Positions 1 to 35,241 of a stretch of 35,241 bases of DNA are shown here, piece by piece (positions within the stretch are counted from its first letter, which is position 1; each line of letters opens with the position of its first letter). The notes beneath the pieces were generated by a model. It was not told where the DNA came from and did not search any database. It was given only the letters and a program-made list of their open reading frames with translations. The position numbers were made by a program, and so were the translations under genes. Source of the stretch: a virus; the IMG/VR virus record IMGVR_UViG_3300047319_001461, positions 1-35,241 of that record. One strand, written 5' to 3'.

Positions 1-933
1 ATCCGCGCCTTCCACTCGTCGCCGCACGACTTCGAGCGGTTCGACCTGTCGAAGATCGGCACCGGCGAGGGCGCGCAGGTCTACGGCCACGGCATCTACG
101 CCGCAGAGAACCCGGCGGTGAGCGGGCAGGGCGGGCAGTACTGGAACCAGTTCATGTCGCGTATGCCATCTGACGAGCAAGCGGCGGCAGGTGTGCTGCG
201 CAATGAAGGCTTCAACCGCCAGAAGGCAATCGAATACTCGAACTGGAATTTGGATCAGCTGCGGCAAGGTGCGGAGAAGGGTGAACTGGATCCGCACATG
301 ATGAAGCTATACGAGGCGCGCCAGCGGCAGCATGACTTGCTAACCAGCGGCGCGCCTGTCGGCCCGCGCACCTACGAGGTCAACATCAAGGCCGACCCAT
401 CTCAATTTCTGGACTGGGACAAACCGGTTCAGGGACAGCCAGTGTTCGCGTCGGCTGCAGGGTCACGCAACGGACTACTGCGTGACGTGCTTAGTCGCAC
501 GGACACTGGCGAGAATTTATACAAGGCCCTGAGCTACGACACCGGGCTTTGGAAGAAGGGCAGCGAAGCATCCAAGATATTGGCTGGCGAGGGCATCCCC
601 GGCATCAAGTATCTCGACGAGGGATCGCGGATCTCATCGCCCGATCAGATCCAAGCGATACGCGAAAACATTGCACACAGGGAAGCCCTGCTTGCAGAAA
701 GACCCGGCGATCCGACTAACACCAAATGGTTGGCGGAATATCAGGACATGCTAAAACGGGCGGAAAATCCGACCAGCAACTACGTCGTGTTTGATCCTGC
801 CAACATCGACATCCTGAAGAAGTACGGCATTGCAGGCGCCGCGGCAGCGCCAGTGGTTGGTGCCGCGATGGGGTCGACCTACGATCAGGGCACCTATCAG
901 GAGCCGGATCCGATGCAGGGGACGTACCAATGA
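1..933 (+). CDS. ADP-ribosyltransferase-fold (ART-PolyVal-like) phage protein, 5' end outside window
   Basis: The reading frame is open from base 1, so the N-terminus lies upstream; 310 codons are visible. The first residues (FHSSPHDFERFDLSKIGTGE, then YGHGIYAAENP) match the conserved start of the ADP-ribosyltransferase domain found in phage polyvalent proteins. The domain appears to end with IPGIKYLDEGSR and NYVVFDPANIDILKKYG, which are also typical of that family. A short Ala/Gly-rich hydrophobic stretch (IAGAAAAPVVGAAMG) follows. Such domains are usually one module of a large protein packaged in the virion and injected, where they could modify host proteins. Whether this copy is catalytic cannot be judged without the missing part. 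The stop codon overlaps the next ATG (ATGA), so the gene belongs to the late operon. Family assignment is fairly secure; substrate and role are inference. Confidence 0.7.
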   Translation: MRAFHSSPHDFERFDLSKIGTGEGAQVYGHGIYAAENPAVSGQGGQYWNQFMSRMPSDEQAAAGVLRNEGFNRQKAIEYSNWNLDQLRQGAEKGELDPHMMKLYEARQRQHDLLTSGAPVGPRTYEVNIKADPSQFLDWDKPVQGQPVFASAAGSRNGLLRDVLSRTDTGENLYKALSYDTGLWKKGSEASKILAGEGIPGIKYLDEGSRISSPDQIQAIRENIAHREALLAERPGDPTNTKWLAEYQDMLKRAENPTSNYVVFDPANIDILKKYGIAGAAAAPVVGAAMGSTYDQGTYQEPDPMQGTYQ

Positions 934-2573: not shown

Positions 2574-2595
2574 ACTTCACCCCAAGGAGACTAGC

Positions 2596-3908: not shown

Positions 3909-4093
3909 GCACGGCGGTCAGGACCGTGGCGAGCGGCGGGCTGGCGGTAACTGACGTTACCGCCTCCACCCCGCTGCGCGGTATGGCGGTCACCGAGAGC
4001 CTGAGCGGCTATGGAATAGCCGTCACAAAAGTCGCCAACGGCATTCCGGTCACCTTTGTTGTCGTGTCCACCATCGGAGGCAACCCGAAGTGA
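3905..4093 (+). CDS. small phage protein with repeated G-x-AVT units (62 aa)
   Basis: The GTG at 3905 overlaps the stop of the previous gene (GTGA), the coupling used throughout this operon. The 62-residue product is rich in Val, Thr, Gly and Ala. It shows a loose three-fold repeat: GGLAVTDVT, GMAVTES, GIAVTKV, then GIPVTFVVV. That suggests a small all-beta protein, and its stop in turn overlaps the next GTG. No charged cluster, cysteine or signal peptide is present. Comparable tiny beta-rich proteins sit near scaffold and capsid genes of other phages, but I cannot name a family. Confidence 0.5.
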   Translation: MSTAVRTVASGGLAVTDVTASTPLRGMAVTESLSGYGIAVTKVANGIPVTFVVVSTIGGNPK

Positions 4094-4407: not shown

Positions 4408-4440
4408 CGGCCCAAGGGTCCGCAACGGAAGGAAAAAACC

Positions 4441-5712
4441 ATGTCTGACACGACAGTTACTACTGCGGCACCCTTACCCGCACAGGCGCAGCCTAACCCC
4501 ACCCCTCGCACTGAAGTGCCGATCAACCAGAACCCGATCAACTCGCCGAACCCGGTCGGCCCGCAGACCCCCTCGACCCCTCCTGACGCGGCGGAGGGCC
4601 GCCGCGCGGCCATCCAGCGCGCCTTCGACCGGGCCAATACCCCGCCGCCGAAGGGCGAGCGGCCCGCGCAGCGGACCGCACCAGCCGTCGAGGCCAAGCC
4701 CGGGCACAACCAGCCACCGGAAGAAACCAAGCCGGAGGCCCTCAACCTCCGCAAGCGGCCGCAGGCGGAAGCCGCGGTGCCGTCCGCGGCGCAGCCGCGC
4801 GACCGCGGCCGGTTCGCGCCGCGCACGGCGCCAGCCGCAACGCAAGGTGCGCAAAATGTTGCGCAAGGCGCGCAACCGGGACAGCCGGTCCGCAAACTGG
4901 CGCCGAACGCGCCTTACGCGGTGCCGCCGCAGCGCATGAGCGAGCAGGCCAAGGCTGACTGGCACGGCACGCCCGAGAGCGTGCGCGGCGACGTCGGCCG
5001 GATGCAGGAGGAGTTCGTCAAGGCGTACCGCGTATATAAAGGCGACTTCGACGAGATGACCAAGATCCGCCACTTCCACAAGATGGCGTCGGATCAGGGC
5101 ACCACGCTGCATCAGGCGTTGACCAATTATGTTGGCATGGAACAGAAGCTGCGCGCGGACCCGGTCGCGGGTCTGGATGTCATCGTCAACAATCTGAACC
5201 TGCGCACCCCGGACGGCCAGAAGATCGGGCTGCGCGACATCGCGTATCACGTCCTGTCACAGTCCCCGGACCAGCTCCGCCAGCTGCAGATGGGTAACCA
5301 GCAGCAGGCTGCCTCGCATCAGATTGGCGCCTTGCATCAGGAGATCCAAGGCTTGCGCCAGACCGTGCAGCAGATGCATACTCAGCAGCAGTTCGTCCAG
5401 ACGCGTTCGGCGATCGATGTTTTCGCCGACAGTCACCCGCGCTTTGACGAACTCGGGACCGCGATCGAGCAGGAACTGAAGCTCGGTTTCGATCTCGAAA
5501 CGGCCTACCGGCGGGCAGAGCGTCTCTACCCGGCCACACACGCGGCTCAGACCCGCTCCACATCGGCTCAGACCCGAGAACCGGATCGTTCGATCCACGG
5601 CACCCACGAGATAGGCCCGGCCAACGGGACTTCGAGGCGACCGCGGACGGCAAGTCCAACCCCTCGCGCAGCTGTTGCGAACGCGATCGCGCGTTTGAAC
5701 GGCCAGATCTGA
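4441..5712 (+). CDS. putative capsid scaffolding protein (423 aa)
   Basis: The ATG follows a purine-rich ribosome-binding site (GGAAGG, 4427-4432). Residues 1-150 are Pro/Ala-rich and disordered-looking. Residues ~160-370 are predicted mostly helical: KADWHGTPESVRGDVGRMQE, a DEMTKIRHFHKMASDQGT segment, then a Gln-rich coiled-coil (LHQEIQGLRQTVQQMHTQQQ) and ELGTAIEQELKLGFDLETAYRRAERLYP. The C-terminus ends with a basic segment, the usual capsid-binding end of scaffolds. Immediate location upstream of the major capsid protein, length and helical, low-complexity character all support a scaffold that guides procapsid assembly and is then removed. The family has little sequence conservation, so the call rests on architecture and position. 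Confidence 0.7.
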   Translation: MSDTTVTTAAPLPAQAQPNPTPRTEVPINQNPINSPNPVGPQTPSTPPDAAEGRRAAIQRAFDRANTPPPKGERPAQRTAPAVEAKPGHNQPPEETKPEALNLRKRPQAEAAVPSAAQPRDRGRFAPRTAPAATQGAQNVAQGAQPGQPVRKLAPNAPYAVPPQRMSEQAKADWHGTPESVRGDVGRMQEEFVKAYRVYKGDFDEMTKIRHFHKMASDQGTTLHQALTNYVGMEQKLRADPVAGLDVIVNNLNLRTPDGQKIGLRDIAYHVLSQSPDQLRQLQMGNQQQAASHQIGALHQEIQGLRQTVQQMHTQQQFVQTRSAIDVFADSHPRFDELGTAIEQELKLGFDLETAYRRAERLYPATHAAQTRSTSAQTREPDRSIHGTHEIGPANGTSRRPRTASPTPRAAVANAIARLNGQI

Positions 5713-5731: not shown

Positions 5732-6751
5732 ATGCCCAACGTCACCAGTAATGCGGCCTACCAGCAAATCCTGTCGATGGCGATCGAGGATCGATCGTCC
5801 GGCTATGAGGATCTTGTCTCAAACAACAACGCCCTGCTCGCGGTCATGAGAAGGAAGGGTCTCTGGCAGACCTACTCAGGTCCGAAAATTCGCCAGACCC
5901 TGCAGATAGGAAAACAATCCGCGCAATGGTACAGCGGTTATGACCAGTTGTTGAACCCCGCGATCGATTTGTTCAATGACGCGTTCTTCGATCCGAAGAT
6001 GGTCGTCATTCCGATTATCCTAAGTTATCAGGAGATCCTCAACAACCAAGGCGACAACCAGCTGATGGACGTCTACGAGAGCTACATCTCCGCCGCGGAG
6101 AAAGCCCTCGAAGATGCGATGGATCAGGGCATCTACTCGGACGGCACCGCCAACGGCAACAAACAAATTACCGGGCTGGCAACCGCAATCCCGATCGCGA
6201 ACACGACAGGCGTCTATGGCGGCATCGATCGCGGCAGCGCAATCATCTGGCGCACCGCGACCTTCGATGCCAACAGCTTCCTCTCGGGAAGCACGCAGGT
6301 CTCGTCTACCACGATCCGCCCGATGCTGAACTACGTCATGACGCAGCGCAGCCGCGGCCGCGACTACGCGGATCTTCTCCTTATGTCGCCGGAGCACTAC
6401 GCGGCCTACGATGCCGCGACAGTGGCGATCCAGCGCCAGCAGAACGAGACAAGCCTCGGCAAGCTTGGTTTCAGCGCGCTCGAATACATCGGCGGCGGCA
6501 AGCGCGCCGAGATCGTGCTCGACGGCGGCATCGGCTCCAACATGCCAGCGAACACGACGTTCGGCATCAATACCGACACGCTGCGGCTTCGCTACAACAG
6601 CGCCAGAAACTTCGACAAATTGTTCGACGGCGACGGTCAGATGCCGATCGACAAAGATGCGATCGCCCAATTTATCGGCTGGATGGGTGAACTCACGATG
6701 ACCAATCCACTGTTCAACTGGCGGATGTACGACAGCAACCCGGCCGCCTAG
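5732..6751 (+). CDS. major capsid protein (339 aa)
   Basis: A Shine-Dalgarno (GGAGAGG, 5721-5727) precedes the ATG. The 339-residue protein has the look of an HK97-fold capsid subunit: an N-terminal helical arm (ILSMAIEDRSSGYEDLVSNN), the strand and spine-helix region (MDVYESYISAAEKALEDAMD, ending in GIYSDGTANGNKQITGLATA), an A-domain-like stretch (LLLMSPEHYAAYDAATVAIQ), and a C-terminal GWMGELTMTNPLFNWRMYDS. It follows the scaffold and precedes head-to-tail genes. There is no obvious N-terminal prodomain, so a separate protein acts as scaffold. It should be one of the most abundant proteins of infection. The unusual leader of the gene that follows may set the capsid-to-downstream ratio (see 6782-6857). 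Confidence 0.85.
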   Translation: MPNVTSNAAYQQILSMAIEDRSSGYEDLVSNNNALLAVMRRKGLWQTYSGPKIRQTLQIGKQSAQWYSGYDQLLNPAIDLFNDAFFDPKMVVIPIILSYQEILNNQGDNQLMDVYESYISAAEKALEDAMDQGIYSDGTANGNKQITGLATAIPIANTTGVYGGIDRGSAIIWRTATFDANSFLSGSTQVSSTTIRPMLNYVMTQRSRGRDYADLLLMSPEHYAAYDAATVAIQRQQNETSLGKLGFSALEYIGGGKRAEIVLDGGIGSNMPANTTFGINTDTLRLRYNSARNFDKLFDGDGQMPIDKDAIAQFIGWMGELTMTNPLFNWRMYDSNPAA

Positions 6752-7582: not shown

Positions 7583-8449
7583 ATGACGCTGTTGAGCGTA
7601 ATTCGCGACGTCTGCGCCGTCGTCGGCGTTCAACAGCCCGCGTCCGTCACCACCAACCTCGTCGCCAACCGCACCATGCAGGAGATGCTGGCGCTGGCCA
7701 ACGAGATGGCGCAGCGCATCGCCTACGACACCCGCGACTGGACGCTGTTTCGCAAGGTGAACACCTTCACCGGCGACGGTGTAAAGACTTCGTTCAATCT
7801 TCCAGCCGACTATCAGCGCATGCTGCTGACCAGCAGTGTCTGGCGCTCGACGCAGACGCTGTACCCGATGCTGTTCGTGCCGGACACCGACCAGTGGCTG
7901 AACCGCCGCGCGCGTAATTACTACGACGCCGCCGGAGAGTGGACGATCCTCGGCGGCCAGATGCTGATCGCACCGACAATGGACAGCGGCATTCCATTGT
8001 GGACGATCAATACCGTGTTCGGCGCGAACATTACGTTGCGCGATCCGGCCGACAATTCGTTGTGGCGTAGCACAGTGGCTACCACCAGCGGCTCAGGCAC
8101 GTTTGCGGCCGATCGCGCCGCCAATCCGGGCTATTGGATTTCCGTGCCTCATACCAGCGTCTACTTCCCGTATCTGGAAAAGAACTGCGTCAGCCTCGCC
8201 AGTGGTGGCTACGGCAATGCCTTCATGGCCGACACTGACAGCTTCCGGCTCGATGAGCGGCTTCTGAAATTGGGCATGGTATGGCAGTGGAAGCAAAATA
8301 AAGGCACCTCCTATGCCGAGGACATGGGCACCTACTCCGACGCGCTGTCGATCGCGATGGGGCATGACAGCCCGGCACCGATCATCATCGGCCGCAGGCC
8401 AATGGGCGGTGGCGTTCGCACCGCCTATCCGTTCCCGGTGCCGACATGA
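7583..8449 (+). CDS. head-to-tail adaptor protein (SU10-adaptor-like, 288 aa)
   Basis: Start ATG at 7583 lies two bases after the previous stop. The N-terminal helical part (LLSVIRDVCAVVGV, MQEMLALANEMAQRIAYDTR, DWTLFRK) and the following LPADYQRML strand region match the pattern of the podovirus adaptor that docks under the portal (T7 gp11 / SU10 adaptor type). The C-terminal helix (FRLDERLLKLGMVWQWKQNK) is also typical. Residues ~164-190 form an inserted module (TSGSGTFAADRAANPGYW) that reappears in the nozzle-like protein encoded next. It should form a ring between portal and tail. The next gene overlaps it by ATGA. Function is well supported by position and pattern, but not by a close homologue. 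Confidence 0.7.
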   Translation: MTLLSVIRDVCAVVGVQQPASVTTNLVANRTMQEMLALANEMAQRIAYDTRDWTLFRKVNTFTGDGVKTSFNLPADYQRMLLTSSVWRSTQTLYPMLFVPDTDQWLNRRARNYYDAAGEWTILGGQMLIAPTMDSGIPLWTINTVFGANITLRDPADNSLWRSTVATTSGSGTFAADRAANPGYWISVPHTSVYFPYLEKNCVSLASGGYGNAFMADTDSFRLDERLLKLGMVWQWKQNKGTSYAEDMGTYSDALSIAMGHDSPAPIIIGRRPMGGGVRTAYPFPVPT

Positions 8450-12395: not shown

Positions 12396-12661
12396 CAGGC
12401 AAGCATACGCAAGCCGAGGCCAATTACGGCAAGGGCGATCCAATCGATCACTGCGGCATCTGCAGGTTCTATCGAACCCCCGGCGGCTGTTCGGCGGTGA
12501 TGGGCGCCATCAGTCCGTTTGGCGTGTGCGATCTGATGCGCGCGGTGCCCAGCCCGTTCCCCAAGACAATGTCGCCCGCCGAGATGAACGCGGTCAGGGC
12601 GATGGCGGCGGACGCCACCGATCGCAGTGGTCAGGTCATGGGAGGGCAGCAGGGTGCTTGA
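12389..12661 (+). CDS. small four-cysteine, HiPIP-like protein (90 aa)
   Basis: The ATG overlaps the previous stop by seven bases. The 90-residue protein has four cysteines at 22, 25, 34 and 47, with the context HCGICRFYR, PGGCSAVMG and ISPFGVCDLM. This follows the high-potential iron-sulfur protein arrangement: C-x2-C, then Cys, then a final Cys preceded by a hydrophobic-x3-G pattern (PROSITE-type C-x6-9-[LIVM]-x3-G-[YW]-C, here with Val in place of the aromatic). Similar small proteins occur in the tail gene clusters of other phages. It could bind a [4Fe-4S] cluster or zinc; the sequence alone cannot decide. No signal peptide is present, whereas cellular HiPIPs are exported. Confidence 0.55.
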   Translation: MVTGKHTQAEANYGKGDPIDHCGICRFYRTPGGCSAVMGAISPFGVCDLMRAVPSPFPKTMSPAEMNAVRAMAADATDRSGQVMGGQQGA

Positions 12662-13133
12662 TTACGTCTATGGACACGACCAGCTGGTCGCCGACTTCGT
12701 GGCGGTGCTGATCCCGTCCGTGCGTGAGCGCGGCTTCCCGAAGGCGTCGAAAGCGATAGGAATTATCGAGGATAACAAGCTGATCGCGGGCCTCGTCTAT
12801 CACAATTTCGACCCGGCCGCGGGCGTGATCGAGATGTCGGGTGCTGCGCTGCCCGGCAGGTACTGGCTCACGTCGGAAACACTACGCCGGATCTATGATT
12901 ACCCGTTCCTCGATGTCGGCTGCCAGATGGTGCTGATGCGGGTCGAGGAAAAGAACACGTCCCTGCTGCGCGTGCTGGCTGCGATCGGCTACGGCTTCAT
13001 CCTCGTGCCGCGGTTGCTCGGGTCGACCAAGAATTGCGTCCTCTGCACGCTGACGTTCGAGGCGTGGCATGACAACAAGTTCAACAAGCGCGACCGGCGG
13101 CAATACTCGCTGGAGAAAGCAAAGGCCGCCTGA
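12654..13133 (+). CDS. phage GNAT-like acetyltransferase (159 aa)
   Basis: The GTG at 12654 is preferred: it follows a GGAGG ribosome-binding site (12640-12644) and overlaps the preceding stop by eight bases. Features of a small GNAT fold are visible: a central strand pair (AIGIIEDNKLIAGLVYHNFD, GVIEMSGAALPGRYWLTSET), then RRIYDYPFLDVGCQMVLMRV and EKNTSLLRVLAAIGYGFILV, the last resembling the C-terminal helix-strand of the fold. It belongs to a family regularly found in tail clusters of podovirus-like phages beside Pro-rich and ejection genes. The substrate is unknown, and the canonical Q/R-x-x-G-x-G/A acetyl-CoA loop is not obvious. It may therefore be a structural or degenerate member. Confidence 0.6.
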   Translation: MLDYVYGHDQLVADFVAVLIPSVRERGFPKASKAIGIIEDNKLIAGLVYHNFDPAAGVIEMSGAALPGRYWLTSETLRRIYDYPFLDVGCQMVLMRVEEKNTSLLRVLAAIGYGFILVPRLLGSTKNCVLCTLTFEAWHDNKFNKRDRRQYSLEKAKAA

Positions 13134-13471: not shown

Positions 13472-14884
13472 ATGGGAAGCATATTCGGAAAAGGTGATGC
13501 GCCAACCCCTCCCGATCCGCAGGCGACCGCGCGCGCACAGACCGGCACCAACGTGTCCACCGCGGTGGCGAACGCGTATCTGGGCAACGTCAATCAGCAG
13601 ACGCCGGATGGCTCACTGTCCTATAACCAGAGCGGAAGCTATGGCTGGACCGATCCGACGAGCGGCCAGACCTATAACATCCCGACCTTCACGGCGACGC
13701 AGTCGCTGTCGCCGACCCAGCTCGACCTGAAGAACACGCAGGACGCCACCAAGCAGCAACTTGCCAACATCGCCAACCAGCAGACCAACCGCGTCGGCAA
13801 CGTGCTGTCGACGCCGTTCAACCCGAGCGGCGGGCCGCAGGCAGGCGACAGCTCGACGATCTCCAACATTCCGAAGGCGCTGACCAGTTTCAATCCCGGC
13901 ATCCCGCTGCAGACCGGCTTCGACAGCGGCGGCCAGATCACGCAGGACTACGGGCCTGCAGATAACTATTCCGCCGATCGGCAGCGCGTCGAGGACAGCC
14001 TGATGGCGCGGATGAACCCGTCGCTGCAGCAGGAGGAGAGCCGGGTTCAGCAGCAGCTGTCCGATCAGGGCATCCGCTACGGCAGCCAAGCCTACAACGA
14101 CGCGATGCGGACCTACCAGCAGCAGGCGAACGATGCGAGGTACGGCGCGATCTCGCAGGCTGGTCAGGAACAGCAGCGCATGGACGCGATGGCGGCGCAG
14201 CGCGCGGCGTTCCAGAACGCGGCGCAGGAGCAGGGCTACCAGCAGAACCTCGGCCAAGGCACTTTCTACAATCAGGCCGCCAACCAGCTGTTCACCCAGA
14301 ACGCGGCGCAGGCGGCGTTCGCCAACGCTGGCCTCGCGCAGCAGACCAATCAGGCGCAGGCGGGCTTCAACGCGGCGGAAGCCGCGCGAAATCAATGGCT
14401 GCAGGAGCAATACGCCAACCGCAACCAGCCGATCAACGAGATCTCCGCGCTGATGAGCGGCAGTCAGGTCAGCCAGCCCAACTTCGTCAACGCGCCATCC
14501 ACGCAGATCCCGACCACCGACGTCGCAGGCATCACCCAGCAGGGCTTCCAGAACCAGATGGGTCTCTACAATACCCAGATGCAGCAATCCAACGCCCTGA
14601 TCGGCGGCGTGCTCGGCTTGGGGGCTGGCGCGTTGAGGTCGGACCGCCGCGCCAAGGAAGATATTGACAAGATCGGCACGGTGTTCGCCGCCAACAGCGA
14701 TGGCGCGCGCAAGAAGCTGCCGATCTACCAGTACAGCTACAAGGACGACCCGGCCTCGACGCGTCATATCGGCCCGATGGCGCAGGACGTGGAAAAGATT
14801 ACGCCGGAAGCCGTCGAGGAGCACGGCGGTACCAAGTATATCCGACCCCGCGAGGTGATGGGGTCCATCATCAGGGCAGGCTAG
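13472..14884 (+). CDS. Gln/Ala-rich candidate ejection protein with short C-terminal S74-like segment (470 aa)
   Basis: The ATG lies four bases after the preceding stop. The N-terminus (MGSIFGKGDAPTPPDPQATA) is typical of virion proteins of short-tailed phages. Residues ~75-340 are rich in Gln, Asn and Ala with long helices (LDLKNTQDATKQQLANIANQ, DAMRTYQQQANDARYGAISQ, QNAAQEQGYQQNLGQGTFYN). The last ~80 residues begin SDRRAKEDIDKIG at 390 and contain YQYSYKD and HIGPMAQDVEKITPEAVEEH, the signature of the peptidase S74 intramolecular chaperone, which trims itself from phage fibres after trimerisation. Here the segment is shorter than usual and lacks the terminal coiled-coil. It could be an ejected protein or a tail-tip component; the S74-like match is clear. 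Confidence 0.6.
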   Translation: MGSIFGKGDAPTPPDPQATARAQTGTNVSTAVANAYLGNVNQQTPDGSLSYNQSGSYGWTDPTSGQTYNIPTFTATQSLSPTQLDLKNTQDATKQQLANIANQQTNRVGNVLSTPFNPSGGPQAGDSSTISNIPKALTSFNPGIPLQTGFDSGGQITQDYGPADNYSADRQRVEDSLMARMNPSLQQEESRVQQQLSDQGIRYGSQAYNDAMRTYQQQANDARYGAISQAGQEQQRMDAMAAQRAAFQNAAQEQGYQQNLGQGTFYNQAANQLFTQNAAQAAFANAGLAQQTNQAQAGFNAAEAARNQWLQEQYANRNQPINEISALMSGSQVSQPNFVNAPSTQIPTTDVAGITQQGFQNQMGLYNTQMQQSNALIGGVLGLGAGALRSDRRAKEDIDKIGTVFAANSDGARKKLPIYQYSYKDDPASTRHIGPMAQDVEKITPEAVEEHGGTKYIRPREVMGSIIRAG

Positions 14885-20847: not shown

Positions 20848-21807
20848 ATGCGCATCTGTATTTCTTCGGGCCACTCCACCGAGTGCCAAGGCGCCTCCGG
20901 CATCCTCAACGAAGTCGCCGAGGCCACCCGCGTCGTCAACCAGCTCGCCATCGACCTGCGCGATCGCGGCCATGAAGTGATGACCTACCATGACACGGTC
21001 AGCACATCCCAGAACGAAAACCTCAATCGCATCGTCGACTGGCATAATGGACAGACGCGAGATCTGGACATGAGCGTTCATCTGAATGCCTATGTCGAGA
21101 CCGCCAAGCCGATGGGTTGCGAGGTGCTCTACTACAGCCAGCAGGCGCTGGCCGCCAAGCTGTCGGAAGCGATCGCCTCCTGCGGCTTCATCGATCGCGG
21201 CGCCAAGAAGCGCACTGACCTGTTTTTTCTCAATAACACGGCAATGCCCGCGGTCCTGCTGGAGATCTGCTTCGTCGACAGTCTTGCCGATGCGGAAGTG
21301 TACCACGCCAATTTCGAGGAGATCTGCGACGCCATCGCCGACGAGGCTGGCGACGAGGGCGAGGACATCTTCGCGCCGCCGGGCGGCGAGGCGCTGTTCC
21401 ACGCGATCGGCTCCTGCTCGGAGTTCGGCGGCCCGGAGGACATCGGCGTGACATCGGACGAGGGGCTGGCGCTGCACTTCGACGTCACCGCCGACAACCA
21501 GCATCTGTTCCTGCCCTACCAGCCATCCGGCAGCTCAGGTCTGGCGCGGCGGCTCAATCCTTACGTCCACTACATCGCCTGCCGCTGGAACTACGACATC
21601 ACGTCGAAGGAGATGCTGGCGGACGGCATCGCGCTGGTGCGGGTGCCCTCGACAGGGCAGGAGCTGGCGGCCTTCCCGGCCGACTGGGGGCCGCATGAGG
21701 ATACGGGCCGGATCGCGGATCTGTCGCCCGGCCTGCTCGCCGACCTCGGGCTGGAAACGGACGACGAGGTCGAGATCATCTTCCCGCACCCTAGCGCATC
21801 CGGTTGA
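20848..21807 (+). CDS. endolysin, N-acetylmuramoyl-L-alanine amidase (Amidase_3), 319 aa
   Basis: The N-terminal ~175 residues form a zinc-dependent Amidase_3 domain. It has the four expected zinc and catalytic positions: His9 (ICISSGH), Glu22 (ILNEVAEA), His78 (DMSVHLNAY) and Glu139 (PAVLLEICFVDS). It would cut the bond between N-acetylmuramic acid and the peptide stem of peptidoglycan at the end of infection. The C-terminal ~140 residues (from FGGPEDIGVTSDEGLA to GLETDDEVEIIF) form a separate beta-rich domain, perhaps double-psi barrel-like; its function is not known to me. There is no signal peptide, so release depends on a holin, probably the gene at 20480. The 3' end overlaps a convergent gene by 17 bases. 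Confidence 0.85.
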   Translation: MRICISSGHSTECQGASGILNEVAEATRVVNQLAIDLRDRGHEVMTYHDTVSTSQNENLNRIVDWHNGQTRDLDMSVHLNAYVETAKPMGCEVLYYSQQALAAKLSEAIASCGFIDRGAKKRTDLFFLNNTAMPAVLLEICFVDSLADAEVYHANFEEICDAIADEAGDEGEDIFAPPGGEALFHAIGSCSEFGGPEDIGVTSDEGLALHFDVTADNQHLFLPYQPSGSSGLARRLNPYVHYIACRWNYDITSKEMLADGIALVRVPSTGQELAAFPADWGPHEDTGRIADLSPGLLADLGLETDDEVEIIFPHPSASG

Positions 21808-24452: not shown

Positions 24453-24949
24453 CCATCAAGAACCCGATCGCGACAGGGGTGTCGCTGATAGCCCTTGGAA
24501 TATTCCTGTTGATAACTACCCACGCCCGCGGCCAGACCACCAACGGCCTGACCGCGGCCCAGAAGGCGCAAATCGCCGATCCCAAGAACCCGCAGTTTGA
24601 ACCGATACCGCAATACCAGTTTCCTGACGCAGACAAGAGCGCACCAGACGAAGCCACCAAGGCGTGGGCGCTGCAACGCGCCTACCAGCTCAACGGCAAC
24701 AGCATGGTCGGCAACGATCATATGATCGACCTGTCGAAGGAGACGCCGTTCTCGACCGTGGTCAAAACCGAGCGCATCCTTCCCGTGGCCAGACCAGACA
24801 TCAAAAACGAACTGGACGAGCAGGCCGACCTCAACATGGATGACCTGCGCAAGTTTTCGCGTCGGGCCAACATGAAGATCGACATCTGTGCGCGCTACCA
24901 CAAGAGCAAGGTCAGTATTAACGGCGGCAAGTCGTGGAGGTGCAAATGA
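24449..24949 (+). CDS. secreted small protein of unknown function (166 aa)
   Basis: ATG overlaps the repressor stop (ATGA). The N-terminus is a signal sequence: basic start (MTIKNP), hydrophobic core (GVSLIALGIFLLITTHARG), cleavage probably near residue 28 (ARGQ). The mature part is charged: TAAQKAQIADPKNPQFEPIP, FPDADKSAPDEATKAWALQR, IDLSKETPFSTVVKTERILP. The C-terminus has two cysteines (ICARYHKSKVSINGGKSWRC) that could pair in the periplasm. No family is recognised. Being co-transcribed with the repressor-like gene, it could be expressed in the lysogen; that is inference. Confidence 0.5.
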   Translation: MTIKNPIATGVSLIALGIFLLITTHARGQTTNGLTAAQKAQIADPKNPQFEPIPQYQFPDADKSAPDEATKAWALQRAYQLNGNSMVGNDHMIDLSKETPFSTVVKTERILPVARPDIKNELDEQADLNMDDLRKFSRRANMKIDICARYHKSKVSINGGKSWRCK

Positions 24950-26264: not shown

Positions 26265-27650
26265 TCAGGCAGCCTTGTTTCGCGTCTGTCTGCGGCGCAG
26301 GTAAGCCTCGAAGGCTTCCTGCGCCGTCATCTTGTTGTAGACCCGCGACAGCTTCAGCTCATCCACAGTATTGGTGGCGACGCAGACGCGGACCACGACT
26401 TGCCTCTTCTGGCCGGAACGATTGATCCGCGCGATGGTTTGCTCCCAATACTCCGGCGACCATGTCGGCGACAGCCAGCACATGTCTGCCCCGCCATGTT
26501 GTAGATTTAGTCCATGGCCGCCGGAGGCCGGGTGCAGCGCCATGAACGGCAGCTTGCCGAGGTTCCATAGTTCTATGTTTGCCGCCGACTGCCTGTCGCT
26601 GACGCCGTCGCCGAGGTAAGGCAGATCGATACCGAGTATCGAGCGCAGCATCTCAAGGTCGTGTATGAACTCATAGACCAGCAGCATCGGACCGGTTGCG
26701 CTCTCGATCAGATCCTCCACCCACTCACGCTTGGCGTCATGGACAAACTGCGCGACCTCGTCATTGCCGTAGACAAAGCCGTTGGCCAGCTGCGCGAGCT
26801 TGCCGGTGGCTACGCCTGCGCTGGCGGCGATAACATCGCCGGACACCAGCTTCTTTTCCATCTCGTCGTAGCGCGCTCGCGCCTCGCGCGGCAGCTCGAC
26901 CTTGTCGAACACGATCGTCGGCTCGGGCTGGATCAGCTCACCCTCCGCGACCGTTGCCACATAAGGCGCGATCGCGGCGTTCAGCTTGTCCTCTGCACCG
27001 GGAAAAGGCGCCCAGTTATACTGGTTGAAATCGGTCGGGTAGAAGTGCTCCTTCTGCCACTTGTAGAACGAGCGACCCCAGAGCTTGCCGCGGGTAACGA
27101 CGCGGGCGGGCATGAACAGGTCCTGCGCAGAGTTTGGACGTAATGTGCCGGTCAGTCCCCAGATCATCCTGAAGCGCGACGCCTGTTTGGCCAGCGCCGC
27201 GGCGCGCTTGCTTTTCGGGTTGCGCAGGCGCGAGATCTCGTCGATGACCAGCAGGTCGAACAGCGGACTGTCGTCGTCCTGTAGCGCCAGTTGCTCGCAG
27301 AGCCACTGGGCGACATCCAGCCCGACGATGGCGATGTCGCGGCTGTGGACACTGGCAGCAAGCAGTCCCAGCTCACGATGCATCGGTCCGCCGTCGAGCA
27401 CGGTGTAGCGCAGCCTAGTGGTGTGCTTCCACAGCTCGATCTCGTCCGGCCAGACCACGCGCGCGACGCGTTTAGGAGCTATGACGAGGGCGTGGCGAAT
27501 GACCTTGTCCCTGATCAACTCCTCGATCGCGGTCAGCGCGGAAACGGTTTTTCCAGCCCCCGGCCTGAGTACAGCCATTGCTTCGTCGTGCTCGTACAAA
27601 AATCCGGTAATGCGATCCTGATAGGGCCGCATCTCTTTTTTCTGTCTCAC
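26265..27650 (-). CDS. SNF2/superfamily 2 helicase (461 aa)
   Basis: The GTG at 27650 is preferred: it overlaps the upstream stop as GTGA and follows an AGGA site. Helicase motifs are intact: motif I at 31-35 (RPGAGKT), motif II at 137-140 (LLVIDEIS), motif III at 165-169 (WGLTGT), and motif VI from 404 (QTIARINRSGQKR). Motifs IV-V include LVYEFIHD and LHPASGGHGLNLQHG. This is the short SNF2-type helicase of phage replication modules, usually beside a family A polymerase and a VRR-NUC nuclease. It would use ATP to move on or remodel DNA, or restart forks. The enzyme class is secure; its exact role in replication is inferred. Confidence 0.85.
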   Translation of the reverse strand: MRQKKEMRPYQDRITGFLYEHDEAMAVLRPGAGKTVSALTAIEELIRDKVIRHALVIAPKRVARVVWPDEIELWKHTTRLRYTVLDGGPMHRELGLLAASVHSRDIAIVGLDVAQWLCEQLALQDDDSPLFDLLVIDEISRLRNPKSKRAAALAKQASRFRMIWGLTGTLRPNSAQDLFMPARVVTRGKLWGRSFYKWQKEHFYPTDFNQYNWAPFPGAEDKLNAAIAPYVATVAEGELIQPEPTIVFDKVELPREARARYDEMEKKLVSGDVIAASAGVATGKLAQLANGFVYGNDEVAQFVHDAKREWVEDLIESATGPMLLVYEFIHDLEMLRSILGIDLPYLGDGVSDRQSAANIELWNLGKLPFMALHPASGGHGLNLQHGGADMCWLSPTWSPEYWEQTIARINRSGQKRQVVVRVCVATNTVDELKLSRVYNKMTAQEAFEAYLRRRQTRNKAA

Positions 27651-28120
27651 TTGTCCTGCTCCAGTGTGTAGCGGGCGATGGACTGCATGGCAGGACCGGC
27701 GGTCCAAGGCTGCCGCAGGATGGCGCGCAGCGCCTCCTCCAACTTGTGTATGCGCGCCTTCAACATCTTGGCGGTAACGCGCCGCTGATCGAACGGCGTC
27801 ATGTCCGGCGAGGTGTCAGTCTCAAGGCGTGGCCGGAAGGCGATCATCTTGGTGATCTTGCCTGCGGCGTTCGGCACCAAGCGGTAGCCGTCCTGCACGA
27901 TCAGTTTTTTCTTCTTCAGTGAACCGGGCCGCGGGGAGAAGCTGTCGCGTTCCATGCGGTGAAAGCGCGCGACCTCGGTGGTCGTCAGCGATCCGCGGGC
28001 CGCCAGTGCCTCGCAGAACATCCTCTCCAGCATGGTAGCGTCCACCAGCGCCGCCGCGATATGCGACGTCACCGGGTCGGTGCTGCGGACTGGCGCGTCG
28101 TCGATCGGGGGATATTTCAT
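27647..28120 (-). CDS. winged-helix DNA-binding phage protein (157 aa)
   Basis: ATG at 28120 overlaps the polymerase stop (ATGA) and follows GGGAG. The N-terminal half has a common phage winged-helix pattern: DPVTSHIAAALV, LERMFCEALAARGSLTTTEV and SPRPGSLKKKKLIVQDGYRL, where the Ser-x-Pro-Arg segment precedes the wing. The C-terminal half is helical (RRVTAKMLKARIHKLEEALR). Such proteins sit in replication blocks and probably bind DNA at an origin or promoter; the target is unknown. It is co-translated with the helicase and polymerase. Confidence 0.55.
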   Translation of the reverse strand: MKYPPIDDAPVRSTDPVTSHIAAALVDATMLERMFCEALAARGSLTTTEVARFHRMERDSFSPRPGSLKKKKLIVQDGYRLVPNAAGKITKMIAFRPRLETDTSPDMTPFDQRRVTAKMLKARIHKLEEALRAILRQPWTAGPAMQSIARYTLEQDK

Positions 28121-30276
28121 AGTCCGTGGCTCCCTTCGTGCTTGGTGTAGTAGTACGCCATTGTCTCCTCGCTCATGACCGGCAGACCTTCGCTCCAGTC
28201 GAAGCCGCGGCGCATGGTGCGGCCGAGCATGAACACCGCCTCGTGGGCTTCGGCAGCGGTCGTCTCCACAAGTATCTCGTCATGGGTGTGCAGCCGTACC
28301 GGCATCCACGCCGCCTCCTCGGCCTCCAGTCGAACCAAGGTGCCGCGCAGGAAGTCCGCGGCGGTCGCCTGCGTGACGTTCTCGACAAAGATCCCCGGCC
28401 ACAGCTTCTGGCGACCATAGGACCGCGCGTAGGTCCACTCCAGCTTGCGGTCGATGACATTGTCGTCGTCGTCGAGGATGTCGATCCACTCGCGCTTGAG
28501 CGCGCGGTAGATCAGGCGACGGCCGGACGGCAGCGTGCAGGATAGCGTGCCGCCAAGGTACCTGCTGTGGAACATGAACGTCACCCGTCCTGCAGGCTGC
28601 GGGTGGCCCGGCATCAGCACTGCCTTGTGCATGCCGTCCCATAATTCCTGACCGTAATTTACCGCCCAAGGATTGGCGGCGCGCCACTGCTCGACAATCG
28701 TCTTGGCCTCGATGTCGTCGATGTGCATGCCGTAGGCGGCCGCCATCGCCTGCAGCGCGTTGACGCCGCCGCCGAAGCCCAGCGCCAGCTCGGCGACCTT
28801 GCCGCGCTGCCGGATCGGTTTTGTCACTTCCTCGATCGGGATGTGCGACAGCACCGCTGCCGTGCGGGTGTAGAGATCAGGCACCGAAGGATCCTCGTCG
28901 ACGTCGCGGAAGATCTGCAGTCGCGTCGCCGCACCGGCGTAGTGGTCGCACAGCCAAGGCAGCACTCTTGCTTCAATCTGGCTCCAGTCCGACCAGACAA
29001 AGACGTTGTCGCCTTTCGGGATAAAGGTCGGCCGGATCAAGAGCGATAGTTTTCTCGCCACCGGCGCACCGTCGCCAAGGGCTGCCACTTCATCGTACTT
29101 GGCGCCATCGAGGATGGCGTCCAGCGCCTGCTGCTCGTAAGGCAGCGGATCGCGCGCGAGGTTATGCACCTGCACGCCGCGGCTACTGGCTCGGCCGGTC
29201 TGCGCCGCGCCGTTGAACACGTACTGCCCGTAGAGCACGCCGTCGACGTGGCTTTGCTCGATCTTTTTGAACTTGGCGGGCGTTTTAGATCCGCCATAGA
29301 GCCGCAGCTCCAGCACGCGGATGACATCCGCGGCCGCAGGATACTTGGCCTGCATCAGAACCAGCAATTTTTGCACCTGTGTCCGTGTCAAGGTGTTTAA
29401 AGCGGGCCTTTTAACCACCCCAAATTCGTCCTTTTCCTCCTCACGCTTCTCCAGCACCTTGCGACCATCCTGCGGCAGCTTGGAGAGCAGCCATTTGGTC
29501 ATGACCGCGACTTGGTCGACGGTCTCGACCACGCCACCGGTGAGCTGCTTCAGCTCCACGCTGGAGCGCACCTTGTCCTGCTCGGCCAGTACGACAGCGC
29601 GCCTCACCAGCTTGAGGTCGACATTGGCGCCGCGCTCGTTGATCGTCTCCATCGCGAAAAACTCCTGCCATTCCGCCTTGGAGAGCTGGAAGGTGGCCCT
29701 GAACACGGCGCGCATGGCGTCGATGTCGGTGGTTGCGTAGGCGTTGCGGAACAGCGACCAGTCGGAGGGGCGCGTCAGCGGCGTCGCGGCGGTCTTGTGG
29801 CCGGGAATGCAGAACATCGGGATCAGGGTTTTGCCCGCGGTGTCCTTCTTGGCGCGGCCAATAATTCTGGACGCCATGTCCAGATCCGGCGGCAGGCCAG
29901 ATGCGACCGCCTGCGCCATCACGTCGATGACATGATGCGGCTCCAGCTTGGGAAAGCCGATTGTGCTGAAGTTCCAGACCGCGCGGTCGAAGCCGCTATT
30001 CCAAGCGGCCCAGATCGCCTCGCCGCGCATCACGCGTTGATGGTGGTTCATGATCTTCGCTGGCATGTCGGTCCATCGAAGGGGTATGCCGTCGAAATCG
30101 TAGACCGCGCGGCTGTCGGCGGCTTCATCGCCGATCGCGAAGGCCAGCACGATCGCATCCGCCTCGGTGGCGTAGCGGTAGGCGCCGGACTTGATGTCGG
30201 TGGCGCTACGGGTCTCGAAGTCGATATACCCTACGTCAGCTGGCGCAAAGGTCTGGCCGTACTCCCGATCGTTCAC
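28117..30276 (-). CDS. family A DNA polymerase with 3'-5' exonuclease (719 aa)
   Basis: Starts at a GTG (30276). Proofreading motifs are intact: Exo I D19-F-E21, Exo II N93-x3-D97 and Exo III Y180-x3-D184. Polymerase motif A is WSDWSQIEAR (D430). Motif B is R489-x3-K493 with L497 and F501 where E. coli Pol I has Phe762 and Tyr766. Motif C is LHTHDEILVE (D666, E667). There is no 5' nuclease domain. It is the replicative enzyme of the phage module. The RQRGKVAELALGFGGG wording is typical of the Leu762 group of phage polymerases. Downstream genes are translationally coupled to it; a hairpin at 30299-30326 lies just upstream of its start. Confidence 0.93.
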   Translation of the reverse strand: MNDREYGQTFAPADVGYIDFETRSATDIKSGAYRYATEADAIVLAFAIGDEAADSRAVYDFDGIPLRWTDMPAKIMNHHQRVMRGEAIWAAWNSGFDRAVWNFSTIGFPKLEPHHVIDVMAQAVASGLPPDLDMASRIIGRAKKDTAGKTLIPMFCIPGHKTAATPLTRPSDWSLFRNAYATTDIDAMRAVFRATFQLSKAEWQEFFAMETINERGANVDLKLVRRAVVLAEQDKVRSSVELKQLTGGVVETVDQVAVMTKWLLSKLPQDGRKVLEKREEEKDEFGVVKRPALNTLTRTQVQKLLVLMQAKYPAAADVIRVLELRLYGGSKTPAKFKKIEQSHVDGVLYGQYVFNGAAQTGRASSRGVQVHNLARDPLPYEQQALDAILDGAKYDEVAALGDGAPVARKLSLLIRPTFIPKGDNVFVWSDWSQIEARVLPWLCDHYAGAATRLQIFRDVDEDPSVPDLYTRTAAVLSHIPIEEVTKPIRQRGKVAELALGFGGGVNALQAMAAAYGMHIDDIEAKTIVEQWRAANPWAVNYGQELWDGMHKAVLMPGHPQPAGRVTFMFHSRYLGGTLSCTLPSGRRLIYRALKREWIDILDDDDNVIDRKLEWTYARSYGRQKLWPGIFVENVTQATAADFLRGTLVRLEAEEAAWMPVRLHTHDEILVETTAAEAHEAVFMLGRTMRRGFDWSEGLPVMSEETMAYYYTKHEGSHGL

Positions 30277-31175: not shown

Positions 31176-32426
31176 TTAAGCCAGCCGCTTCAGCGCGCTG
31201 GCAAACTCTTCAATGGCCACGCGCCGCTCCACCGGCGGCGCCGGATCATCAGTCCGGCACACCGTCGTCTCGGTTGTCGGAGGTGCGACGCGCAGATGGT
31301 CGGGGATCTCAACGCCAAGGCGTTTTGCGGTGGCGTCGACCGAGGCGAAGGTCTGCAGCTGGCTGCGCCAGATCTCGCCAACTTCAAAACCAAGATCGCG
31401 CAGCGCCTGCTCGACTTCGTCCTCGTCGATCCACTGGCGGTTCCTGACCTTGTCTTTCAGCCGCCAGCCCGGCACCTCGCCGCCTGCTTCGAGGTAAGCA
31501 TGCAGCTGATCGTTGACTTCCTTGGCGAACATGCCGAGCAGGTCGACCAGCGTCTTGGCGCGTGACAGATACTGGCCATAGGGTGTCGCAACGCCGAGCA
31601 GGGCCGGGTCATCGGCGCGCATAGGCGACACCGGCTTCAGCGCCGCGATCTCCAGCATCGGCGCGGTCCACAGCGGGCAGTCCAGCTTGCAGGGCGCGAA
31701 CCGGCACCACTCGCCTTTTTGCCGCACCGGATCGTAGTCCAGCGCCTTGGCCACGGCGTTCTGCAGATCCTCGATGAACCACTTCACCTCCTTGCGCGTG
31801 ACGACCGTGTGTGAAAGTGGGACGTCGCTGCGCGGCTGGATGATGGCGAGCGCGATCGACTTGCGCCCGGCGTAGAGCTGCTTCAGCGTCTGCATGCTGG
31901 CCGCGGTGTAGAACATCAGCTGCGCATTGACGGTATCGCTGTCGCCGTGATCGTAAACCGCCTTAACGCCGACGCCCTGTCCGAACTTCCAGTCGACGTG
32001 CAGCACCATCTTTTCATTGCTGAGGATCAGGTCGCAGGTGCCGTGGGCGCCGGGGATCCCCGGAAAATCCACGCCCTGCTCGACGGCGACGACCACGAAG
32101 CCGCCGCCATATTCGTCCTCGAGTTTCGCCAGCGCGTCGAGCGCGGGCAGGATCATGGTGTCGAGATGCTCCTGCGTCAGGTCGCGATCGTAGAACTTGG
32201 TGCCGACGATCTTGCGCGCGTAGTCGTACTCTGGAGCGGCGACGCCGCTGTACTGGCGACGCTGCATCAGGTGCGTCATCACCTCGTGCATCGCGGTGCC
32301 TTCGTCAGCGTACTCTGATGAAACATCTGCGCTGGGCGGCAGCTTCAGCGTGGCCTGATAGGAGCCGGGGCAATTGAGCAGACGTGCAGCGGTCGAGCCG
32401 CCAACAATGGAAGAATGCTTGGCCAT
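31176..32426 (-). CDS. DUF2800/Cas4-like PD-(D/E)XK nuclease (416 aa)
   Basis: The RecB-type nuclease motifs are visible: GTAMHE at 43-48, Asp132 (TCDLIL), D145-W-K147 (HVDWKFG), and Q169-x3-Y173 (QLMFYTA). Four cysteines are arranged as in Cas4 and AddB, one near the N-terminus (C19, LLNCPGSY) and three near the centre (C241, C246, C250). They probably hold a [4Fe-4S] cluster. The family occurs in phage replication blocks with a family A polymerase. It would trim DNA ends or process recombination intermediates. The ribosome-binding site is weak (GGA), and its leader resembles that of the gene downstream. Family assignment is good. Confidence 0.8.
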   Translation of the reverse strand: MAKHSSIVGGSTAARLLNCPGSYQATLKLPPSADVSSEYADEGTAMHEVMTHLMQRRQYSGVAAPEYDYARKIVGTKFYDRDLTQEHLDTMILPALDALAKLEDEYGGGFVVVAVEQGVDFPGIPGAHGTCDLILSNEKMVLHVDWKFGQGVGVKAVYDHGDSDTVNAQLMFYTAASMQTLKQLYAGRKSIALAIIQPRSDVPLSHTVVTRKEVKWFIEDLQNAVAKALDYDPVRQKGEWCRFAPCKLDCPLWTAPMLEIAALKPVSPMRADDPALLGVATPYGQYLSRAKTLVDLLGMFAKEVNDQLHAYLEAGGEVPGWRLKDKVRNRQWIDEDEVEQALRDLGFEVGEIWRSQLQTFASVDATAKRLGVEIPDHLRVAPPTTETTVCRTDDPAPPVERRVAIEEFASALKRLA

Positions 32427-32486
32427 TACAGTGTATCCGGTTTCGTGTCATAGGTTCTGTGGCCAGATTGAGGGAGACCCATCACA
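32427..32486. promoter_or_regulatory. divergent intergenic region between nuclease genes
   Basis: These 60 bases separate the leftward replication operon from the rightward VRR-NUC gene, so both promoters must lie here or in coding sequence. It contains a copy of GTTTCGTGTCATAGGTTCTG (32440-32459), similar to 31127-31149, and GGGAG plus CATCACAA before the rightward ATG. I see no convincing sigma-70 boxes. Confidence 0.3.
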
Positions 32487-32768
32487 ATGTCAAGGGGACC
32501 GCGCGAGGACACGGTCGAGGAGGAATTAGTCCGCCGCGTCCGCGCGCTCGGCGGGCGCTGCGAGAAGATGTCGATGAAGGGACGCCGCGGCTTTTTCGAT
32601 CGCCTCGTCGTGCTGCCGGGCCGCGTGATCTTCTGCGAATGCAAGCGGCCGCACGGTGGCGTGCTGTCGCCGCACCAGATGTCGATACACGCCGCCTACA
32701 GGGCACTAGGGGCTGTGGTTGCCAACATCAAAAATTCGGCAGACATTGACGACCTGCTGAAAAAATAG
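32487..32768 (+). CDS. VRR-NUC domain nuclease (93 aa)
   Basis: ATG at 32487 follows GGGAG (32472-32476). The 93-residue protein is a minimal VRR-NUC domain, as found alone in many phages: Glu11/12 in the first helix (VEEELVRRVRALGG), G35FFDR with catalytic Asp38, the E51-x-K53 pair (IFCECKRPHG) and Gln64 (LSPHQ). The family includes Holliday-junction and structure-specific nucleases. Here it probably resolves branched replication or packaging intermediates. It is the first gene of the rightward replication block; a strong hairpin begins at its stop codon. Confidence 0.85.
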   Translation: MSRGPREDTVEEELVRRVRALGGRCEKMSMKGRRGFFDRLVVLPGRVIFCECKRPHGGVLSPHQMSIHAAYRALGAVVANIKNSADIDDLLKK

Positions 32769-32799
32769 AGGCCGCACGGTGGGGGCACCGCGCGGCCTC
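32768..32799 (+). other. strong hairpin between VRR-NUC and primase genes
   Basis: GAGGCCGC (32768-32775) pairs with GCGGCCTC (32792-32799). After one mismatch the stem continues CGGTG/CACCG, closing on a GGGG loop. The hairpin starts at the last base of the VRR-NUC stop. No T-run follows (GGTCACACATCC), so it is more likely a partial terminator or an RNA-stability/processing element that separates expression of the two genes. Confidence 0.55.
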
Positions 32800-32835
32800 G
32801 GTCACACATCCCACCCAAACGTAGGAGCAGACCCT

Positions 32836-35241
32836 GTGCCGCATCATGACCGGTCCAAGACCAAAACGCAACACGAGGCCTTAACACAATCCAGATTGAC
32901 TTTGTTCCATAATGGCTACCACCCGATCCCGACCAAGGGCAAGATGGCCTTGGTCAAGGGCTGGCCGTCGCAGGATTTCCTCGACCGCGAGATGGACGAA
33001 AAGCGGATCGCGAGTTGGTCCAGACGTTACCCTGAACTACAATCAACCGGGGTGCGCGTCGACCAAGGGCTGGTGGTGATCGATGGCGACGTCGACGACG
33101 AGGAGCTGGCGGAGCTGGCGTGGCGGGCGATCGAAAAGATTGCCCTCGATGCCGCGGAGGCTGGCCCGACGCGCTACGGCAAGAGCGAGCACAAGTTTGC
33201 GCTGTTTGCGCGGCTGAAAGGGCCTGAGACCTTCCGCTACGAGGCCAGCCACGGCTACGTGCGGCCGCTGGAATTGGCCTTGTGGCAGTCCGCCTTGGCA
33301 GGCGCCGCCAAGGGCGAGCGCGTGCCTGAACCTACAACGCATCGCCTTGAGATCTTTGGCAGTTACGCTGGCGGTCCGTGTTCTCAGCACTTTGGCGTGG
33401 TCGGGCCGCACAGCTACAACGACGATGGCTCAATCGCGGCGGAGTATCGCTGGGGCGAGGGGCCGACGCTGGAGAATACGCCGCTTTCGGACCTGCCAGT
33501 CATCAGCCACGCGCAGGCGGTGGAAATTCTTGTGCTGTTCGAGCGGCTCGCCACCGAGGCTGGCTGGGTGCCGCTCTCCGAGCCGATCGGCGCCAACTCG
33601 ACGGTAGCCTACGACATCACCGAGGCGACGCGTTTTGATACGAACAAGGGCGGCGAGCAGATCGATTACGAGGAGCTGTGCGCGGATTTCTACGCCTGCG
33701 GCAAGGACTTGAAGTGCTCCGCCAGCTTCATTCCCGGCCGTGGCGAGGGCGGGCGGCGCGACCACGGCATCGTGGGCGATGACAACCGGCACCAGTGCGT
33801 GGCTGTGCATGTCTATGGCGATGGCGTGACCCACTTTCCGGCCTACCTCGCCAAGCCCGGCGACACCATCGAGGAGGAGATCGAGGCGGTCGGGGCAGCG
33901 GTGAAGAGCGACAAAAAGGTGCTGCCGTTCGGCGTCAGCATTAGCGACTTCTATGCCTTCATGCCCAAGCACCTCTACATTTTCGCGCCGACCGGCGACC
34001 TCTGGCCCGCCGCCAGCCTCGATGCGAGGCTGCCCAAGATCCCGATCGTCGACGCCCGCGGCCAGCCGGTGCTGGACAAGAAAAAGAACCCCAAGACGAT
34101 CCCGCCGCACCTCTGGCTCGATCGTAATCGCCCGGTCGAGCAGATGACGTGGGCGCCGGGCGAGCCACAGGTCGTCAGCGGCAAGCTGGCGGTCGAGGGT
34201 GGCTGGGTAGCGCGCAAGGGCGTGGCGGCGTTCAATCTTTATCTGCCGCCACAGGTCAGGCCGGGAGATCCGGCCAAGGCCGATCGATGGGTGCATTTAA
34301 TTCAGCGTATTTATCCGGACCATTGGCGGCACATCGTGGCGTTCTGCGCCCACCGGATCCAGCGCCCGGCCGAGAAGATCAACCACGCGCTGGTGCTGGC
34401 GGGTTCTCCCGGCATCGGCAAGGACACCATACTGGAGCCGCTGGTGCACGGCGTCGGACCGTGGAATTTCGGTGAGGTATCCGCGCATGACGTCATGGGC
34501 ACCTACACCGGCTACGCTCGCAACGTGGTGCTGCGGATCTCCGAGACACGCGACCTCGGCGACGTCAGCAGGTACGATTACTACAACAAAACCAAGACGT
34601 TATCGGCGGCGCCGCCGGACATGCTGCTGGTCAATACCAAATACGTGCCGCAGTTCTACGTCCCCAACGTGCTCGCCATCATCGCCACCACCAACCACGA
34701 GACAGACGGGCTGTATTTGCCCGCCGACGATCGGCGGCACTACGTCGCCGGGACCGACATCACCTACAAGGACCACGCGGAGGGTTACCTGCCGGGGATC
34801 TGGGACTGGTACGCCGCGGGCGGGGTCTGGGACGTCGTGGCCTATCTGGCGTCCTTCGACCTGTCCGCCTTCGACGCCAAGGGACCGCCCGTCAAGACGC
34901 CCGCGTTCTGGCGCATGGTTGACGGCGGGGCGGCCTCCGAACTGCCTGAGTTCAGGGACGCGCTGGAGAAGGCCGGGGAGAAAGGCGAAATGCCCGCGGT
35001 GGTGACGGTGGCGACGGTAGCCATGCACGCCGAGTTCGAGCTGAAAAAGTGGATGAGCGACCCGAAAAACAAACGCAACATCGCCCGTCGACTGGCCGAC
35101 TGCGGCTACGTTCCGGTGCGCAATCTGGACACGAAAGATGGCAGGTGGAAGATCGATGAAATCAAGCATACAATCTACGGTAGGCGTGACCTGTCGGGAA
35201 CGGATCGCTATCGGGCGGTCGAGAGCATGCGCGACAAGGTG
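32836..35241 (+). CDS. primase-polymerase / DUF5906-like helicase, 3' end outside window (802 codons visible)
   Basis: GTG at 32836 is chosen because GGAG (32824-32827) lies eight bases upstream; the frame is open further up. The first ~150 residues resemble a bifunctional primase-polymerase domain: LVKGWPSQDFLDREMDEKRI, then VVIDGDVDD with the metal pair D83 and D85, and TRYGKSEHKFALFARLKG. A long middle part follows. From ~515 a P4/D5-like superfamily 3 helicase is clear: Walker A at 523-531 (GSPGIGKDT), VVLRISETRD, LAIIATTNHETDG (sensor Asn) and LPADDRRHYV (arginine). The protein would unwind and prime DNA for the polymerase. The frame is still open at base 35241, so the C-terminus is missing. 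Confidence 0.8.
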   Translation, partial: MPHHDRSKTKTQHEALTQSRLTLFHNGYHPIPTKGKMALVKGWPSQDFLDREMDEKRIASWSRRYPELQSTGVRVDQGLVVIDGDVDDEELAELAWRAIEKIALDAAEAGPTRYGKSEHKFALFARLKGPETFRYEASHGYVRPLELALWQSALAGAAKGERVPEPTTHRLEIFGSYAGGPCSQHFGVVGPHSYNDDGSIAAEYRWGEGPTLENTPLSDLPVISHAQAVEILVLFERLATEAGWVPLSEPIGANSTVAYDITEATRFDTNKGGEQIDYEELCADFYACGKDLKCSASFIPGRGEGGRRDHGIVGDDNRHQCVAVHVYGDGVTHFPAYLAKPGDTIEEEIEAVGAAVKSDKKVLPFGVSISDFYAFMPKHLYIFAPTGDLWPAASLDARLPKIPIVDARGQPVLDKKKNPKTIPPHLWLDRNRPVEQMTWAPGEPQVVSGKLAVEGGWVARKGVAAFNLYLPPQVRPGDPAKADRWVHLIQRIYPDHWRHIVAFCAHRIQRPAEKINHALVLAGSPGIGKDTILEPLVHGVGPWNFGEVSAHDVMGTYTGYARNVVLRISETRDLGDVSRYDYYNKTKTLSAAPPDMLLVNTKYVPQFYVPNVLAIIATTNHETDGLYLPADDRRHYVAGTDITYKDHAEGYLPGIWDWYAAGGVWDVVAYLASFDLSAFDAKGPPVKTPAFWRMVDGGAASELPEFRDALEKAGEKGEMPAVVTVATVAMHAEFELKKWMSDPKNKRNIARRLADCGYVPVRNLDTKDGRWKIDEIKHTIYGRRDLSGTDRYRAVESMRDKV

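Follow-up and report, generated by a model that had tools for sequence, protein, structure and literature searches.

Absence of GANTC and several other palindromes from a podovirus-like soil phage, and the purging of GANTC across most of its clade

The window analysed here, i.e. the whole stretch of 35,241 bases, constitutes the entire IMG/VR virus record IMGVR_UViG_3300047319_001461 (classed as linear) and belongs to a tailed, podovirus-like phage from soil; it is probably a fragment from a phage of alphaproteobacteria. The record is incomplete, covering approximately 35 of the approximately 42 kb present in relatives, with about 7 kb of the genome absent: the terminase and portal genes lie outside the window on the left, and the primase gene is truncated on the right. 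The truncated left end carries an uncharacterised gene (118–933, + strand) which tblastn identified as homologous to portal-adjacent genes in the full relatives G003, G023 and G027. It is followed on the same strand by genes for a virion structural protein (4441–5712; phrog_25516, E 2e-16), the major head (capsid) protein (5732–6751; phrog_9953, E 2e-76; 63% to that of Rhizobium phage RHph_I3_18), a tail or adaptor protein (7583–8449; phrog_6013, E 6e-37, with a weak match to the SU10 adaptor Pfam family), an acyl-CoA N-acyltransferase (12627–13133; phrog_4470, E 2e-31), a second virion structural protein (13472–14884; phrog_6121, E 2e-120), a tail protein with an S74 endosialidase-type chaperone domain (18726–20258; PF13884, E 3e-9) and the endolysin, an N-acetylmuramoyl-L-alanine amidase (20848–21807; PF01520, E 2e-19). 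The − strand encodes an SNF2-type helicase of the replication module (26265–27707; PF00176, E 2e-14), a family A DNA polymerase (28117–30276; PF00476, E 2e-16) and a DUF2800/PD-(D/E)XK nuclease (31176–32426; PF10926, E 9e-47; PF12705, E 1e-12), and a primase/helicase (32779–35241, + strand; PF09250, PF19263, phrog_1156) is truncated where the record stops on the right. The SNF2 helicase is similar to the defence-system helicases DrmD and DpdE, a likeness which probably reflects the common helicase fold only. Megablast of positions 1–25,000 against named phages returned no match, and neither an integrase, a resolvase nor an adenine methylase was found in the window, outside of which approximately 7 kb of the genome lie.

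An exact count over the whole window confirmed the claim of an earlier note, made from the sequence alone, that GANTC is absent (0 in 35,241 bases). An order-2 Markov model predicts 107 sites, close to the approximately 100 which that note had anticipated, and a maximal-order model predicts 39, a conservative value because sub-words such as GAAT and GATT are also depleted. Among all 256 patterns of the form xxNyy, i.e. the 5-mers with a free middle base, GANTC displays the lowest ratio of observed to expected occurrences. In 500 synonymous-codon shuffles of the 37 predicted genes (34.3 kb), the coding part was expected to hold 67.3 ± 6.6 sites and never held fewer than 48. Synonymous choice could create GANTC at 867 positions within these genes; nevertheless, all 33 serines that follow Asp or Glu are encoded by AGC or AGT and none by TCN, as opposed to 371 TCN codons among the 592 serines overall. 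Individual losses can be seen in pairwise alignment with relative G003, where the window reads GAACC at 24460–24464 (+ strand) against GAATC, and GACGC at 13742–13746 (+ strand) against GACTC; the GANTC sites left in G003 are scattered rather than limited to one foreign segment. GATC is present, as had also been claimed, with 338 occurrences in the window; within coding DNA it is over-represented (327 against a shuffle mean of 215, sd 10), opposite to the other palindromes.

If composition, codon bias or mutation bias were responsible, no selection on GANTC would be required, and it is true that the reversed control CTNAG also falls below its order-2 expectation (32 against 77) and that host genomes are themselves GANTC-depleted. 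However, CTNAG persists at 32 copies in the window, the shuffles did not descend below 48 sites, and relatives of similar GC content (G032, G036 and G057) retain 40–80 GANTC sites, rendering this explanation very improbable. The codon shuffles and the serine-codon bias therefore establish, in agreement with the earlier note, that the absence is real and not a product of composition.

GANTC had previously been regarded as a lone anomaly, a view that does not hold since at least three more palindromes are at zero. Codon shuffling predicts 162 ± 10 copies of CCWGG, 53 ± 6 of GCCGGC and 10.6 ± 2.9 of AGCGCT, none of which occurs, and 27 ± 4 of CCCGGG, which occurs once; the purge is therefore not specific to GANTC. 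CTCGAG is found twice in the whole window, and CCSGG is common (156 copies). Four palindromes (GANTC, CCWGG, GCCGGC and AGCGCT) thus present the pattern of Type II avoidance, with an observed/expected ratio (O/E) below 0.1 beyond codon usage and composition, and their zeros are independent of amino-acid and codon composition. The close relatives G002 and G003 are likewise purged of CCWGG and GCCGGC, but G007, whose capsid protein is 97% identical, has seven CCWGG and ten GCCGGC sites left. At the window positions aligned to these G007 sites, site-destroying substitutions or gaps are found, as is typical of restriction-site avoidance.

The major head protein (5732–6751, + strand) served as the query for collecting the phage family and for the tree. 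The search of viral contigs yielded 511 relatives, 80 of which were kept, and across these approximately 80 records most of the close relatives have next to no GANTC, whereas the more distant ones have 0.17–0.6 of the order-2 expectation. The window falls in a capsid clade of 54 records with a support of 98/100, in a tree whose run was not fully settled. When an avoider is defined by an O/E below 0.1, a cut-off chosen after the data were seen, and with records that are partly fragments (for many, 40 of approximately 43 kb were read), 42 of the 54 clade members avoid GANTC and 12 tolerate it; outside the clade G083 is the only avoider. GANTC is purged in more records of the clade than any other palindrome; CCWGG (19/54) and GCCGGC (16/54), both of which are patchy, come next among the common sites. 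Selection has thus eliminated several palindromes, and GANTC from the largest part of the clade, and the strong selection against GANTC proposed by the earlier note agrees with the codon shuffles, the serine-codon test and this family-wide pattern. An assembly or library artefact, for example the loss of fragments with HinfI sites, has next to no probability: nothing was found in its support, the same pattern recurs in many independent records from different samples, others keep GANTC, and the isolated and cultured Caulobacter phage Cd1 displays the pattern too. In some members, such as G019 and G016, some 20–30 palindromes are purged at once, including GANTC, CCWGG, CGATCG, RGATCY, GCCGGC, GGCGCC and CCGCGG, possibly because these phages infect a very wide range of hosts; in G019, the terminase match (L088:10434-11810) contains an in-frame stop codon on read-through.

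GANTC is the methylation site of CcrM, a cell-cycle regulator of alphaproteobacteria. Large-terminase relatives in GTDB genomes were located mainly in Alphaproteobacteria, including a Rhizobium (59% identity), and the nearest named phage is Rhizobium phage RHph_I3_18. Among 20 sampled genomes with terminase relatives, 17 alphaproteobacterial ones (one of them titled just Proteobacteria) carried a CcrM-type PF01555 gene (E 1e-63 to 1e-71); an Aureimonas genome contained only a PF01555 fragment at a contig end, and two betaproteobacteria produced weaker matches only. A capsid-alignment search for prophages in 84,980 genomes detected no relative, neither a prophage nor an isolate of the clade; we therefore infer the host from sequence, and it probably lies among the CcrM-encoding Alphaproteobacteria. 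As for candidate enzymes directed against the other sites, the EcoRII-C family (CCWGG) is represented in the Rhizobium order, a possible host group, by 12 of 297 genomes, and the NaeI family (GCCGGC) is rare there (1/297).

The chromosomes of candidate hosts contain 572 GANTC sites against 1382 expected (a ratio of 0.41, i.e. approximately 2.4-fold depletion), in line with a published survey which found host genomes to be at least two-fold depleted (PMC3973325). Since the ratio ranges from 0.10 to 0.73 in 20-kb stretches, a host-like level would still leave approximately 11–78 sites in the window. Tolerant phages thus resemble their hosts, and avoiders fall far below them, the depletion in the clade (O/E below 0.1 in 42/54) being both clade-wide and below the host mean of 0.41. 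The approximately two-fold depletion of the hosts themselves, together with the role of GANTC as the CcrM/GcrA site and its family-wide purging beyond any ordinary restriction site, is what would be expected if methylated or hemimethylated GANTC carried a regulatory or replication cost, by attracting GcrA or disturbing cell-cycle methylation, with no nuclease needed. We consider such a cost unlikely to be the cause, as a zero throughout coding DNA requires it to be strong at each site, where GcrA effects are expected at promoters, and as ordinary Type II sites are equally purged in the same genome.

The distribution of methyltransferases bears on the same question. Adenine methyltransferases of phrog_799 are encoded by G026, G055, G057, G069, G081 and RHph_I3_18, and phrog_67 enzymes by G054 and G081; all of these phages tolerate GANTC, and no avoider carries either type. 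Within the clade, a methyltransferase was detected in 0 of 42 avoiders as against 4 of 12 tolerant records (Fisher p=0.0016), an association based on three lineages and a post-hoc threshold; three of the four carriers, in two lineages, possess phrog_799. This PHROG includes phiLM21_p027 (E 3e-61), an enzyme shown experimentally to methylate GANTC (PMC5537653), with low pairwise similarity between it and the phrog_799 enzymes of the family. The window has no match to phrog_799 or phrog_67, its Pfam scans returned no methylase, and CcrM-type PF01555 methylases were not found in 48 relatives; moreover, no methyltransferase was detected in about half of the tolerant clade lineages or in most tolerant sister phages. 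The 'methyltransferase' EVC14_020 of RHph_I3_18 was rejected as a DNA methylase, being a Methyltransf_23 enzyme. In the tolerant G081, phrog_799, phrog_67 and phrog_56 DNA methyltransferase genes lie close together. That carriers of a likely GANTC methylase do not avoid GANTC is a better fit to protection from cutting than to a regulatory cost.

A division by lifestyle, in which strictly virulent phages purge GANTC and temperate phages tolerate it since the host methylates prophage DNA, was attractive at first, as integrases are frequent in the tolerant sister lineages and stronger elimination in non-temperate phages has been published (PMC6286503). This division broke down when serine recombinases were counted and the clade was taken into account: an integrase or large serine recombinase was present in 5 of 18 near-complete avoiders and in 4 of 8 tolerant clade records (p=0.38), and G063 possesses an integrase and yet retains 0 of 145 expected GANTC sites. 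Lifestyle is accordingly an improbable explanation.

Restriction-site avoidance is established for dsDNA phages (Rusinov et al. 2018, PMC6286503), and the window shares with the phages of that study the almost complete loss of short palindromic Type II sites and, in its family, relief under another anti-restriction mechanism. It differs in that the most purged site of its clade belongs to the orphan host methylase CcrM, and in that avoiders and tolerant phages of the clade could not be told apart by lifestyle. GANTC depletion has likewise been described in about half of 33 pelagiphages, where evasion of a defence was suspected without an identifiable restriction-modification system (Seong et al. 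2022, PMC9516812). Those phages infect CcrM-type Alphaproteobacteria, as the phage of the window probably does, and are likewise depleted clade by clade; the window represents another lineage, of high G+C content, with an absolute zero in 35 kb and more sites purged, and its family includes methylase-bearing tolerant relatives. The CcrM-like methyltransferases of Sinorhizobium phages (phiLM21_p027 and others, PMC5537653) target GANTC, the very site that is purged in the window; tolerant relatives carry phrog_799, the PHROG of phiLM21_p027, whereas the window has neither the gene nor the sites. RHph_I3_18 resembles the window in its syntenic structural module and in its 63% identical capsid protein, but is temperate (integrase, C repressor), encodes a phrog_799 methylase and retains 61 GANTC sites against 174 expected. 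Cd1 (GU393987), with GANTC at 0/109 and CCWGG at 1/157, belongs to another phage family, the Autographiviridae, and is thus a convergent case; as a published and cultured phage it offers a system for tests of mechanism. The pelagiphage HTVC011P is a further convergent case among unrelated alphaproteobacterial phages (GANTC 1/84), and also lacks GATC (0/80). Roseobacter phage SIO1, on the other hand, retains GANTC (50/116). In Myxococcus phage Mx9, GATC is almost gone (4/74 under the maximal-order Markov model) and GANTC is at expectation.

The earlier note had offered two readings, escape from restriction and escape from the CcrM/GcrA promoter switch. The former is favoured because several classical Type II sites have been eliminated from the genome as well and because carriers of relatives of a proven GANTC methylase tolerate GANTC, and the latter has lost ground because the purge reaches the last coding site and because a methylase would bring no relief from such a switch. 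The best reading of the data, and in our judgement probably the correct one, is thus escape from restriction at unmethylated GANTC, by avoiding or by methylating the site; we infer that sites left unmethylated are cleaved and that this drives the purge. Restriction activities met across the host range would select against GANTC, CCWGG, GCCGGC, AGCGCT and, almost to completion, CCCGGG. As the hosts would methylate their own GANTC sites by CcrM, a putative nuclease cutting unmethylated GANTC would do them no harm but would be lethal to incoming phage DNA. Phages may respond by one of two routes, either deleting GANTC, as the window and 41 other clade records may have done, or possibly protecting it with an adenine methyltransferase of their own, as predicted for the phrog_799 family (three clade records, in two lineages). 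Some tolerant relatives display neither avoidance nor a detected methylase. Because CcrM keeps host GANTC methylated, a putative GANTC nuclease would be cheap for many hosts to keep, and this cheap upkeep would account for GANTC being the site that the purges have in common.

Avoidance of restriction sites by phages and the depletion of GANTC in pelagiphages are known, and the window is a fresh and unusually complete instance. What sets it apart is that GANTC, and no other site, has been purged from most members of a large phage clade; in the literature consulted, the family-wide scale and the split between purgers and methylase bearers are apparently undescribed. That GANTC is purged more widely than any ordinary restriction site, and that methylase carriers keep it, suggests that phages entering these hosts are endangered by GANTC sites that lack methylation. 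CcrM counts as an orphan methylase, and we know of no cognate nuclease. A more far-reaching proposal, which we advance tentatively and regard as rather doubtful, is that a widespread alphaproteobacterial defence destroys DNA with unmethylated GANTC, so that CcrM would also supply the modification in a restriction-modification system whose parts are dispersed, and phages would either delete GANTC or carry a GANTC methylase. The clade pattern makes testable the old question of why phages of alphaproteobacteria often carry CcrM-like methylases and, if the proposal were true, cell-cycle methylation would be tied to phage defence.
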